From Bradyrhizobium xenonodulans (GTDB lineage: Bacteria; Pseudomonadota; Alphaproteobacteria; Rhizobiales; Xanthobacteraceae): a stretch of 64,000 nucleotides of DNA. Each line of letters begins with the position of its first letter. Position 1 is the first letter of the stretch. The stretch spans positions 6,602,501 to 6,666,500 of the forward strand of contig NZ_CP089391.1 of NCBI RefSeq assembly GCF_027594865.1, written 5' to 3'. Below the pieces are notes generated by a model. It searched no databases. It was given only the letters and a program-made list of their open reading frames with translations, and was not told the origin of the DNA. Position numbers and translations under genes: made by a program. Positions 1 through 3,121 of this stretch are shown piece after piece.

Positions 1-243
1 TGCTTCGTGCGCTCGCGTGTCGACGCCGCCGGCAATGCCGGCCGCCCGACCGTGAACTGCGGTGTGCGCGTCGCCGAAGGCGCGCACCGCGCCTACGTCA
101 CCGACTTCATCCGCGACGCCCGCGCCGGCGGCTGCGCGCAAGGCGTGCCGCCCGCCAATCTCGGCTTCCGCCTGGTGCGGGAGGAGACGTCCTGGGTCGC
201 GAGCGTGTCGGCGCGGTGGGGCAAGGTGTGGATGAGGTCGTAG
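1..243 (+). CDS. 3' end of a SUMF1/formylglycine-generating-enzyme-like protein (partial)
   Basis: The reading frame is open from the first base of the window to a TAG at 241-243 and gives 80 residues. The stretch ending in NLGFRLVRE resembles the C-terminal core of the FGE-sulfatase (SUMF1) fold, whose members usually end shortly after a GFRV/GFRL motif. Here about 18 more residues follow. The 5' part lies outside the window, so domain content and function cannot be checked. The stop lies 13 bases before a palindromic repeat that carries an insertion sequence. The family call rests on one short motif; the frame may instead belong to an unrelated protein. Confidence 0.4.
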   Translation, partial: CFVRSRVDAAGNAGRPTVNCGVRVAEGAHRAYVTDFIRDARAGGCAQGVPPANLGFRLVREETSWVASVSARWGKVWMRS

Positions 244-255
244 CTGAGCGTCCTG

Positions 256-273
256 CTGTCATTGCCCGCGAAG
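256..273. repeat. left fragment of a RIME-like palindromic repeat split by the IS
   Basis: CTGTCATTGCCCGC followed by GAAG. It forms the left arm and loop of a terminal hairpin whose other arm, GCGGGCAAT, lies at 1549-1557 beyond the insertion sequence. GAAG is present on both sides of the IS (270-273 and 1545-1548). Confidence 0.8.
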
Positions 274-324
274 TGTTCAGACCGGGGACATAGCTGACAC
301 CTGTTCGGACACATCACTGACAGG
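274..324. repeat. left end of the IS with modular terminal repeat
   Basis: Reading inward the order is TGTTCAGACCGG (274-285), GACATAGCTGACAC (287-300), TGTTCGGA (302-309), ATCACTGACAGG (313-324). The same modules occur at the right end with the second and fourth exchanged. The transposase stop codon (277-279) lies inside the outermost module. Confidence 0.8.
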
Positions 325-1455
325 TTGGCCATTGGTCAAGTCGATTGATGCGACCTGCCAGCTGGCGAAGAAGATTCCGTAGCGACCGTCGCGGTCGAGC
401 TGCCTGATGGCCAACTGCTCGCCGCAGAAGGCTTGAGGGACTTTCCACATCTGCCCTTTGAAGGCGATGTAGCTCCGGGTCGAGGAGGCGGTGCGAACGA
501 TCTCCCCGGCGTCGTATTGCACCTTCGGCACACGATCGGGCATGGCGCGAGAACTCGGCCGGTAGCGATCGGCGGGGATACCCATGCCGAGGCTTTCATG
601 TGGCCGCTCCAGATTGTAGATCGTGCGCCAGTTGTCGAGGGCGCGCTGAACTTCCGCCAGGGTGCGGAACGTGTGCAGAGCGAACACTTCCGCTTTCAAG
701 CTGCGATGGAAGCGTTCGTTCTTGCCTCGGCCCTGAGGATGGCGTGGCCTGGCGTGGATCACCCTGACGCCGAGCTTGAGCAGCCATACCTTCAGCGAGG
801 TCCAGCGAGCGCCGGACGTGTCGCCCCAGGGAGATCCATTGTCGAGGTAAAAGGCCTCTGGCATCCCATAGCGTCGAAAAGTGTCGGTCAGGTGTTTCTG
901 CACGTCTGGGCGCCGCTCGTTGGCGCATGCCTTCAGACACAGGGCATAGCGCGAGTGGTCATCGACCATGGTGAGCGGATGGCAACGCCTCCCGTCGGCA
1001 AGCGGCATGTGACCCTTGAAGTCCATCTGCCAAAGCTGATTGGGCGCATCCTTCTCGAACCGGTGGTCTGAAGGGCTTGGCGAAGCCTTCTCGCTCGGCT
1101 TGATCCGCTCATTCCGGCACAGGATCTGATGGACCGTCGAAGGCACAGGCACAGCCTGGCCGTCGCGCTTCAGGCAATGGGCAATCTTGCGCGCCCCCCA
1201 GGCTGGATGCTTGTCCCGCACAGCCAGGATTTGCGCCTCCACCGCAGGCTCGCTGCGCCTGGGCATGCTCTTCGGACGACGCGGCTGATCCGCCAGATCA
1301 TGGTCGCCAGCCTGCCAACGCCGCAACCATTTATAGCCCACGTCAGGGCTGATTCCGAACCGCCGGCACAACTCTCGCCGGTTCGCTCCTTCCTGTAAGG
1401 CAAGCCGCACAAACTCGCGTCGCTGATCCATTACCGACACCTCGTTCCAGGGCAT
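277..1455 (-). CDS. IS481-family transposase
   Basis: A DDE transposase of 392 residues. The N-terminal 60 residues form a helix-turn-helix region (LCRRFGISPDVGYKWLRRW), and an integrase-core (rve) catalytic domain follows. The likely catalytic triad is the Asp of WQMDFKG, the Asp of YLDNGSPWG and the Glu of KNERFHRSLK. The frame is unbroken. I chose the ATG at 1455 because GGAGG lies 7-8 bases upstream and the MPWNEVSV start is typical of this family. An in-frame ATG at 1488 would fall inside the right terminal repeat and lacks such a site. The stop codon sits within the left terminal repeat. Confidence 0.95.
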   Translation of the reverse strand: MPWNEVSVMDQRREFVRLALQEGANRRELCRRFGISPDVGYKWLRRWQAGDHDLADQPRRPKSMPRRSEPAVEAQILAVRDKHPAWGARKIAHCLKRDGQAVPVPSTVHQILCRNERIKPSEKASPSPSDHRFEKDAPNQLWQMDFKGHMPLADGRRCHPLTMVDDHSRYALCLKACANERRPDVQKHLTDTFRRYGMPEAFYLDNGSPWGDTSGARWTSLKVWLLKLGVRVIHARPRHPQGRGKNERFHRSLKAEVFALHTFRTLAEVQRALDNWRTIYNLERPHESLGMGIPADRYRPSSRAMPDRVPKVQYDAGEIVRTASSTRSYIAFKGQMWKVPQAFCGEQLAIRQLDRDGRYGIFFASWQVASIDLTNGQPVSDVSEQVSAMSPV

Positions 1456-1494
1456 GGACGGCCTCCCAAATCGACCAATCCAGCCCATTGTGAT

Positions 1495-1544
1495 GTGTCA
1501 GCTATGTCTCCGAACACCCGTCAGTGATCTGTCCGGTCTAAACA
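1495..1544. repeat. right end of the IS with modular terminal repeat
   Basis: Reading inward from 1544 on the minus strand the order is TGTTTAGACCGG, ATCACTGACGGG (1517-1528), TGTTCGGA, GACATAGCTGACAC (1495-1508). The two longer modules are in the opposite order to the left end. Confidence 0.8.
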
Positions 1545-1634
1545 GAAGGCGGGCAATCCAGTATTCCGAGACGGCGGTGATTGAACCGAGAAGCCGCAGC
1601 GTACTGGATGCCCCGCCTGCGCGGGGCATGACAG
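1545..1634. repeat. right fragment of the RIME-like palindromic repeat
   Basis: It holds the second arm of the interrupted hairpin (GCGGGCAAT, 1549-1557), an inner inverted pair ATCCAGTA/TACTGGAT (1556-1563 and 1602-1609), and a second terminal hairpin ATGCCCCGC-CTGC-GCGGGGCAT (1608-1629) ending in GACAG. Joined to 256-273, with one GAAG copy removed, it is a repeat of about 104 bp with inverted ends CTGTCAT. Short mosaic palindromes of this kind are common between genes in rhizobia. Confidence 0.8.
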
Positions 1635-1747: not shown

Positions 1748-2398
1748 TTACGTGTTCTTCAGCGCGACGCGGAATTCGGCTTCGGTCTTGGCCTTGACCT
1801 CGTCGAGCGAGACGCCGTCGGCGAGCTCGATCAGGGCCATGCCGCCGTCGCCGTGCTTGTCGATGGTGAACACGGCCAAATCGGTGACGACCATGTCGAC
1901 CACGCGCTCGCCGGTCAGCGGCAGGTTGCACTTCTTGAGCAGCTTCGAGCCGTCCTTGGCCGAATGCTCCATCACCACGACGACGCGCTTGACGCCGGCG
2001 ACGAGATCCATCGCGCCGCCCATGCCCTTGACCATCTTGCCGGGGATCATCCAGTTGGCGAGATCGCCGTTCTGGGCGACCTGCATGGCGCCGAGGATCG
2101 AAAGGTCCATGTGGCCGCCGCGGATCATGCCGAAGGAATCCGCGCTCGAGAAATACGAGGTCGAGGGCAATTCGCTCACGGTCTGCTTGCCGGCATTGAT
2201 GAGGTCGGCGTCTTCCTCGCCCTCATAGGGAAACGGTCCCATGCCGAGCATGCCGTTCTCGCTCTGCAGGCTGACATCCACGCCGTCGGGGATGAAGTTC
2301 GAGACCAGCGTCGGGATGCCGATGCCGAGATTGACGTAGTAGCCGTCACGCAGTTCCTTTGCGGCGCGCGCAGCCATCTGTTCACGGGTCCAGGCCAT
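1748..2398 (-). CDS. scoB: 3-oxoacid CoA-transferase subunit B
   Basis: Beta subunit of a class I CoA-transferase, 216 residues, the usual length. It transfers CoA from succinyl-CoA to acetoacetate or a related 3-oxoacid, in the cytoplasm. The [10 protein letters not shown] segment carries the Glu expected to form the glutamyl-CoA thioester, and GIGIPTLV near the N-terminus is typical of the family. The ATG at 2398 has AGGAGAG just upstream. It lies 15 bases after subunit A, so the two form an operon. The acceptor cannot be told from sequence: acetoacetate (ketone-body or PHB use) and 3-oxoadipate (PcaJ) are both possible. No PHB or beta-ketoadipate genes lie nearby. Confidence 0.9.
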
Positions 2399-2413
2399 GT
2401 GGCTCTCCTGATC

Positions 2414-3121
2414 TTAAGCGGCGTTGCGCGGGCGGGTGTTGCGGAATTCGATGCGCTTCTTGGCCGTACCGACCTCGACGATGCGCTTCACGAAGATGCC
2501 GGGCGTGTGGATGTGGTCGGGATTGAGTTCACCGGCCGGAACCAGATGCTCGACCTCGGCCACCGTGATCTTGGCGGCGGTCGCCATCATCGGGTTAAAG
2601 TTGCGCGCGGTCTTGCGGTAGATGAGGTTGCCGGCGGTGTCGCCCTTCCAGGCGTGCACGATGGCGAGGTCGGCGAACAGGCCGCGCTCCATCAGGTATT
2701 TCTCGCCGTCGAACTCCTTCACTTCCTTGCCTTCGGCGATCAGCGTGCCGACGCCGGTCTTGGTGTAGAAGGCTGGGATACCGGCGCCGCCGGCGCGGAT
2801 GCGCTCGGCCAGCGTGCCCTGCGGATTGAATTCGAGTTCCAGCTCGCCGGCGAGGAATTGCTGAGCGAACAGCTTGTTCTCGCCGACATAGGACGAGATC
2901 ATCTTCTTGATCTGGCGGGTTTCCAGCAGGCGGCTGAGGCCGATGCCGTCGACGCCGGCATTGTTGGAGACGACCGTCAGGCCCTTGACGCCGGACTCGC
3001 GGATCGCGTCCGACAGCGCCTCGGCGATGCCGCAGAGGCCGAAGCCGCCCGACATGATCATCATGTTGTCTTTCAGAATGCCGTCGAGAGCCGACTTGGC
3101 GTCGGGATAGACCTTGTTCAT
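2414..3121 (-). CDS. scoA: 3-oxoacid CoA-transferase subunit A
   Basis: Alpha subunit of the same heteromeric class I CoA-transferase, 235 residues. It has the N-terminal glycine-rich CoA-binding segment MSGGFGLCGIAEAL and the family segment VVSNNAGVDGIGLSRLL. It is the first gene of the two-gene minus-strand operon. The 288 bases between its start and the divergent AsmA-like gene should carry the promoter; I see no strong consensus there. Confidence 0.9.
   Translation of the reverse strand: MNKVYPDAKSALDGILKDNMMIMSGGFGLCGIAEALSDAIRESGVKGLTVVSNNAGVDGIGLSRLLETRQIKKMISSYVGENKLFAQQFLAGELELEFNPQGTLAERIRAGGAGIPAFYTKTGVGTLIAEGKEVKEFDGEKYLMERGLFADLAIVHAWKGDTAGNLIYRKTARNFNPMMATAAKITVAEVEHLVPAGELNPDHIHTPGIFVKRIVEVGTAKKRIEFRNTRPRNAA

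Follow-up and report, generated by a model that had tools for sequence, protein, structure and literature searches.

The window, the whole 64-kb stretch of DNA analysed here, contains an insertion sequence of the IS481 family located exactly in the loop of a hairpin and flanked by a GAAG target duplication (Table 1). The ends of the element form inverted terminal repeats matching at 11 of 12 positions, with TG...CA termini. Once the element and one copy of GAAG are removed, a perfect stem of 9 bp closed by a 4-nt loop is restored, for which the DNA fold gives -11.3 kcal/mol and z -5.85. The original prediction, that the element occupies exactly the hairpin loop and that the tetraloop is the 4-bp duplication, is thus borne out by the coordinates and by the rebuilt stem. 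The second hairpin of the repeat was expected to be intact, and it is; it has the opposite orientation and is the only match to the searched REP pattern in the window. The two hairpins are located between a rightward reading frame and the 3' end of two adjacent genes that, by eye, resemble those for CoA-transferase subunits.

Table 1. Features of the interrupted REP dimer and its surroundings in the window.
Feature	Positions	Strand	Evidence or comment
Stop of the rightward reading frame	241..243	+	
Tag TGTC (257-260) and left arm ATTGCCCGC (261-269) of the interrupted REP, first of a head-to-head pair	257..269	+	sequence; tag and AT-first stem as in the available part of PMC3733652
Loop GAAG, left copy of the 4-bp target duplication	270..273	+	target duplication 4, stem 9 (site L001)
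IS481-family insertion sequence, 1,271 bp, TG...CA ends TGTTCAGACCGG / CCGGTCTAAACA	274..1544	-	four copies 99.9-100% identical
Transposase gene, 403 aa: HTH, rve core, C-terminal beta strands (predicted)	277..1488	-	profile matches; AlphaFold model
Loop GAAG, right duplicated copy	1545..1548	+	
Right arm GCGGGCAAT (1549-1557) and tail CCAG (1558-1561) of the interrupted REP	1549..1561	+	
Intact partner REP	1605..1633	-	arms 1608-1616 and 1621-1629; loop 1617-1620; tag 1630-1633
Two adjacent genes	1748..3121	-	by eye resembling CoA-transferase subunits

The element carries a single DDE transposase gene of the IS481 type with an rve core. Its product matches the NCBIfam model 'IS481 family transposase' (NF033577) with 278.7 bits at a cut-off of 224, while the score against the IS3 model, 131.1, is under the cut-off of 160. 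The AlphaFold model, with a mean pLDDT of 76.1 and a pTM of 0.56 that is too modest to support statements on contacts with the target, predicts HTH modules, an integrase core and C-terminal beta strands; its best PDB match is IS21 IstA. Target duplications of the IS481 family are 4 bp or more in length. Those found here are short: GAAG in the window, 4 or 5 bp in relatives, and 6 bp in a distant relative (L280).

The interrupted repeat had been called RIME-like. That it is a hairpin repeat stands; its assignment is revised, as it fits the published head-to-head dimer of CGTC-tagged REPs. As far as the available part of the description goes (Di Nocera and others, 2013, PMC3733652), such REPs have a CGTC or TGTC tag, stems that begin with AT and are 8-9 bp long, loops of 4 or 5 nt and CCA tails; they occur mostly as head-to-head dimers, are common in alphaproteobacteria, including Bradyrhizobium, and are reported there to have only few, fortuitous associations with transposase genes. 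The target in the window, TGTC-ATTGCCCGC-GAAG-GCGGGCAAT-CCAG, has such a tag, AT-first stem and CCA tail, and the partner REP gives the head-to-head arrangement at this site, the only one counted for this feature. The 9-bp stem with a 4-nt loop mixes the types CGTC-1 (8/4) and CGTC-3 (9/5) as given in the available part of the same paper. No paper connecting RIME, insertion sequence and Bradyrhizobium was found in the open-licence literature.

Copies of the element and their target sites

Four copies of the element were found in the host genome (8.28 Mb, one contig), and all of them are flanked by REP halves. In three the duplication is intact and identical with the loop (GAAG twice, GCAG once); the fourth has a CTTC half on one side and a GCAG half on the other and resembles a recombinant of two copies. 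The two REP hairpin patterns searched have 151 matches in the genome, 114 with a 4-nt and 37 with a 5-nt loop, and the reversed control of the arm-loop-arm pattern yielded none. With these 151 places, the chance of finding four of four copies in such loops is about 1e-19. Of 797,200 sampled positions, 71 are the start of a 4-mer loop and 75 of a 5-mer loop closed by a stem of at least 8 bp. No near DNA match to the element was found in plasmids, and no relative of it in viral contigs.

Three of the four copies are located 29-54 bp past the end of a reading frame of at least 130 codons, and inside none; at the fourth, recombinant copy a frame spans the artificial join. As REPs are repeated, and as the three intact copies lie just past the ends of long frames, REPs probably offer many landing sites of low cost, and copies of the element may then recombine with each other. 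The same positions would be expected if insertion were random and only insertions into intergenic REPs were tolerated. However, selection cannot fix a register to the single nucleotide in a repeat with about 150 sites per 8.3 Mb, nor can it make the duplication follow the loop, and we give such survivor bias almost no credence.

A DNA match to the element was present in 137 of 265 Bradyrhizobium genomes, with copy numbers being lower bounds, as lists were capped and two candidates were scored per genome; 20 genomes were re-searched with 20 candidates each. Flanks shared without change with named records, as in L035 and L212, point to Bradyrhizobium as the genus. A loose pattern allowing three mismatches matched all 265 genomes, mostly by chance according to control counts, and was set aside. 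A scan of named genomes yielded 461 relatives, of which 80 were kept. The collection comprised 142 sites, 131 of them distinct and 112 two-sided; at 88 of the latter a direct repeat of 4 bp or longer is present. Sites were left out for want of an end pair (L222, L258-L262, L270, L271, L273, L277) or because the ends were mispicked or ran into gaps (L209, L225, L263, L266, L267, L272, L276); truncated copies and L141-L144, L147, L148 and L167 are outside the site count.

The direct repeat was the exact loop of the best nearby hairpin in 63 of the 88 sites (21 repeats of 4 bp and 42 of 5 bp), and the stems were 8-10 bp long in 61 of these 63. Among the other 25 sites, 13 were degenerate REPs of the ATNGCGAGC or ATNGCTTCG type, with the repeat still centred between the arms. 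In L061 and L279 the loop could itself close further, L040 has one mismatch in an arm, and L046 is likely a recombinant. L100 was hit at the loop of a non-REP hairpin with a 6-bp stem, ACCCTC-CCCTG-GAGGGT; L039 lies inside a reading frame and has GAAG and no hairpin; three odd sites (L112, L238, L252) fit no class. In L280, L281 and L283, located in CCCTCCCC-type hairpins, the duplication is off-centre, covering part of the stem and part of the loop, which would represent a second hairpin register within the family. Both orientations of the element relative to the REP are used (33 vs 40, 16 ambiguous).

Insertion into the loop as a rule is supported, far beyond the copy in the window, by all four copies of the host and by the exact loops of the collection. 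The flanks rebuild a stem exactly around the duplicated bases in 63 sites, and in 13 more the repeat is centred in a degenerate REP. On the question whether GAAG is conserved, the loops vary, being GAAG, GCAG, CTAC, GAAA, TCAAG, CTCGA, ACAAG and CTCGT. A copy in a gene or a non-palindromic site, which had been named as evidence against the prediction, was encountered clearly once (L039).

No direct repeat was present at 24 of the 112 two-sided sites, and 21 of these 24 show, by eye, a REP-like half on each side (L122, L287 and L288 do not). We read the 21 as probable products of recombination between copies. Such recombination is also what would be seen if one element in a single REP had been spread by recombination, so that the sites were not independent. 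Against that, the flanks, stems and loops differ between internally identical copies, and an empty dimer exists at the site of the window in a relative, L326, which makes composite spread very improbable. In L326 an unbroken REP dimer with different arms and loop lies between the same two genes as in the window, the left one matching at 84% over 234 bp, and this locus can be regarded as a natural empty site for the insertion in the window. In L315 the two neighbour genes are present and the dimer is absent.

Two further kinds of sites were noted. In L136, L249 and L293 (and also in L038 and L246) there is no direct repeat, and the two loop copies are mutual reverse complements; the outer REP halves of the first three still look normal. 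Either recombination between copies or inversion of the loop may account for this. Many genomes keep just short conserved ends of the element (about 50-210 bp, L149-L165), mostly beside REP halves, and these appear to be remnants of old insertions.

For the transposase tree (midpoint root), 131 of 135 proteins passed a filter on length and similarity, and 70 representatives of these were used; target classes were partly assigned by eye. One branch of 62 rows (support 99/99) contains 49 well-paired REP loops, nine degenerate REPs, two unclassed sites, one other (L039) and one tentatively assigned to the terminator type (L287). The remaining eight rows (99/99) comprise six sites of the terminator type in CCCTCCCC...GGGGAGGG hairpins, off-centre where the repeat is readable, and two others. 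Distant IS481 relatives in such terminator-like hairpins are L143, L148, L167, L280, L281 and L283. Users of REP loops were found in Bradyrhizobium, Rhodopseudomonas, Pseudolabrys, Rhizobium, Neorhizobium, Sinorhizobium (ISRm20), Caulobacter, Methylocystis and others, and the stem sequences of their targets differ between hosts. The insertions of a nested clade (BTAi1 and others, support 100/100) lie for the most part at the centre of REPs of a weakly folding class.

Duplication length and loop length

The length of a target duplication is usually treated as fixed by the geometry of the transposase. In the sites collected here duplication length follows loop length, and this observation is new; no publication on duplication length tracking a loop was found among the titles and abstract starts of the open-licence literature. 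Since the exact-loop class by definition cannot contain crossed cases of loop and repeat, the arm spacing was re-measured from the outer tag and tail of the REPs. Both outer marks, from a list drawn up after inspection of the sites, were present at 77 sites, with 11 further sites of the 88 lacking a mark. A spacing of 4 was accompanied by a repeat of 4 in 33 sites and a spacing of 5 by a repeat of 5 in 41, and three sites disagree: L046 (spacing 6, repeat 4) and the Caulobacter sites L250 and L251 (spacing 4, repeat 5), where the mismatch arises because the 8-bp stem makes the outer mark misplace the arm.

Elements of identical sequence carry both lengths. In G012, L114 (CTAC, 4 bp) is 100% identical in DNA to L042 (CCTGT, 5 bp) and L103 (TCAAG, 5 bp); in G214, L097, L104 and L123 (4 bp) are 100% identical to L045 (5 bp); and in G193, where the copies are more than 99.6% identical, both lengths occur too. 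Difference of duplication length by element subtype is ruled out by these cases. As identical elements duplicate 4 or 5 bp according to arm spacing, the stagger is set at least partly by the target; it is apparently the target, and not the enzyme by itself, that determines the cut. In ISRm20 and relatives in Rhizobium, Caulobacter and Rhodopseudomonas, the duplication likewise matches the loop, in stems of other sequence.

One-sided junctions show the same across the genus: among the matches listed, the distance to the element was 4 nt in 91 of 97 junctions with the arm CCCGC and 5 nt in 76 of 81 with the arm CCCGG, counts that are not independent, as a complete copy gives two junctions. Contrary or odd junctions included CCCGG at 4 nt (L297) and three at 6-7 nt with no partner seen (L294, L298, L299). 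At two contig ends of G029 (L295 and L296, on different contigs), TCGAAG and CTTCGA lie beside REP halves; paired with each other, they probably stem from a single insertion that duplicated 6 bp in a 6-nt loop.

Structure and sequence in target choice

The original prediction supposed that the site may be chosen by structure. In the strict form of this idea the transposase recognises an extruded cruciform or a single-stranded hairpin at a fork and cuts at the stem-loop border, sequence being irrelevant. The equality of duplication and loop fits this well, as do the differing stems used by one element in G012 (ATGGCCGGG, ATGCCCCGC and ATCGCCCGG) and the insertion of L100 in an unrelated hairpin. 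A further point in its favour comes from a class of REPs with the same tag, tail and loops that folds weakly and is about equally common: 67, 131, 187 and 151 such REPs were counted in G000, G012, G193 and G214, compared with 151, 126, 158 and 115 well-paired ones. The window-type element avoids this class, as 27 of the 28 copies found in the four genomes are in well-paired REPs (L122, with no REP on one flank, being the one left out), a preference that would have a probability of about 10^-8 were the two classes equally accessible.

Nevertheless, hairpins other than REPs are more common and almost never hit. In two 400-kb samples, those with a stem of at least 8 bp and a loop of 4-5 nt numbered 46 vs 7 and 61 vs 9 REP-like ones (rough classes; at least two of the nine are not REPs), yet the sole non-REP hairpin hit at its loop, L100, has a 6-bp stem. 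Many non-REP hairpins lie in genes, where insertions may be lost from view. The nested clade also inserts at the centre of REPs that fold weakly; the one example folded gave -2.7 kcal/mol and z +0.46, and in BTAi1 (L244), the single site with a spacing of 5, the duplication equals this spacing in a REP with non-pairing inner arms. Recognition by structure alone is therefore unlikely in our view. What stands of the prediction is the tracking of loop length and the case of L100; choice of the site by structure is only partly supported, and structure alone is insufficient.

The nested clade (sites L052, L054, L056-L058, L130-L134, L239, L240 and L243-L245) has shifted to the weakly folding class ATTGCGAGC-NNNN-CGAAGCAAT and keeps the central register. 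Identical elements of this clade also occur in well-paired REPs (L053 beside L130, L055 beside L132).

The converse explanation is that the palindrome is incidental and that a set sequence is recognised by the enzyme, for instance GTCAT...ATCC or the loop GAAG. The outer REP mark is indeed found on both sides at 77 of the 88 repeat-bearing sites (marks chosen after inspection), and L039 has GAAG without a hairpin. At the same time the loops vary and the stems change from host to host. Moreover, the classified copies of the window type do not use those REPs that share tag, tail and loops with their targets but have inner arms that do not pair; plain sequence specificity is quite improbable.

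It is very probable that, in the ISRm20-like branch of the IS481 family, the transposase targets CGTC-tagged REPs with a stagger equal to the arm spacing. The target class, the exact position in the loop and the tracking of arm spacing by the duplication among identical elements support this directly. The paired transposase would set one active site against each arm of the REP, and the ends of the element would be joined at the two arm-loop borders; the stagger, and with it the target duplication, would equal the spacing of the arms, that is, the loop, at 4 or 5 bp and perhaps in rare cases 6. We infer that the arms place the active sites individually, in a way that would work on duplex or only partly opened DNA, and extrusion of the palindrome as a cruciform may help. 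A more specific version, in which the opened REP palindrome is captured and cut at the arm-loop borders, so that the host loop and not the enzyme fixes the stagger, is put forward tentatively, as a possibility that we rate somewhat below even.

Targeting of CGTC-tagged REPs by the ISRm20-like branch constitutes a systematic association between these REPs and a transposase in several alphaproteobacterial genera. It also provides a defined setting in which to ask if a transposase sees an opened palindrome in vivo, and hints at how elements of this kind may persist with little harm and seed rearrangements. If the palindrome is indeed opened, this would be a DDE transposase whose duplication length is templated by the target, and the element would report where REP palindromes open in the living cell.

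Known REP-targeting elements

IS1397 and ISKpn1 reportedly have a transposase-determined specificity for REP-type palindromic units; they are said to belong to the IS3 family and to occur in enterobacteria, unlike the IS481 element of the window. Closer to the latter is the element annotated as ISRm20 in Sinorhizobium meliloti, with 63.7% protein identity to the window transposase. Its site, ATCCCTGTG[CTCGT]CACAGGGAT, is the 5-nt loop of a CGTC-like REP with a 5-bp duplication, and the stem sequence is unlike that in the window.

An IS481-family element is also present in Pseudomonas fluorescens SBW25, where the targets are presumably Pseudomonas REPs of the GTAG type. Four copies and one new insertion of this element occupy the same position of REPs, and the 4-bp repeat at the four old copies is said to have been mistaken for a duplication (PMC11708052, available part). 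The SBW25 element is thus like that of the window in family and in having REP targets, whereas variation of repeat length with the loop is not mentioned in the part of the publication available. The original prediction knew of no description of such insertion for an IS481 element in rhizobial palindromes; a link between IS481 elements and REPs is, however, already in print for P. fluorescens, and what is new is the dependence on loop length.

According to the available part of another study (PMC1525189), REP-targeting insertion sequences are known in the families IS3, IS110, IS4, IS256 and IS5, and two of the elements insert at the symmetry axis. These are ISPsy8 (IS3) and ISRm22 (IS4), all copies of which lie in REPs at the symmetry axis of the hairpin or palindrome, as in the present case; they differ from the element of the window in belonging to other families and in having, in the same source, one repeat length each, 3 and 6 bp.
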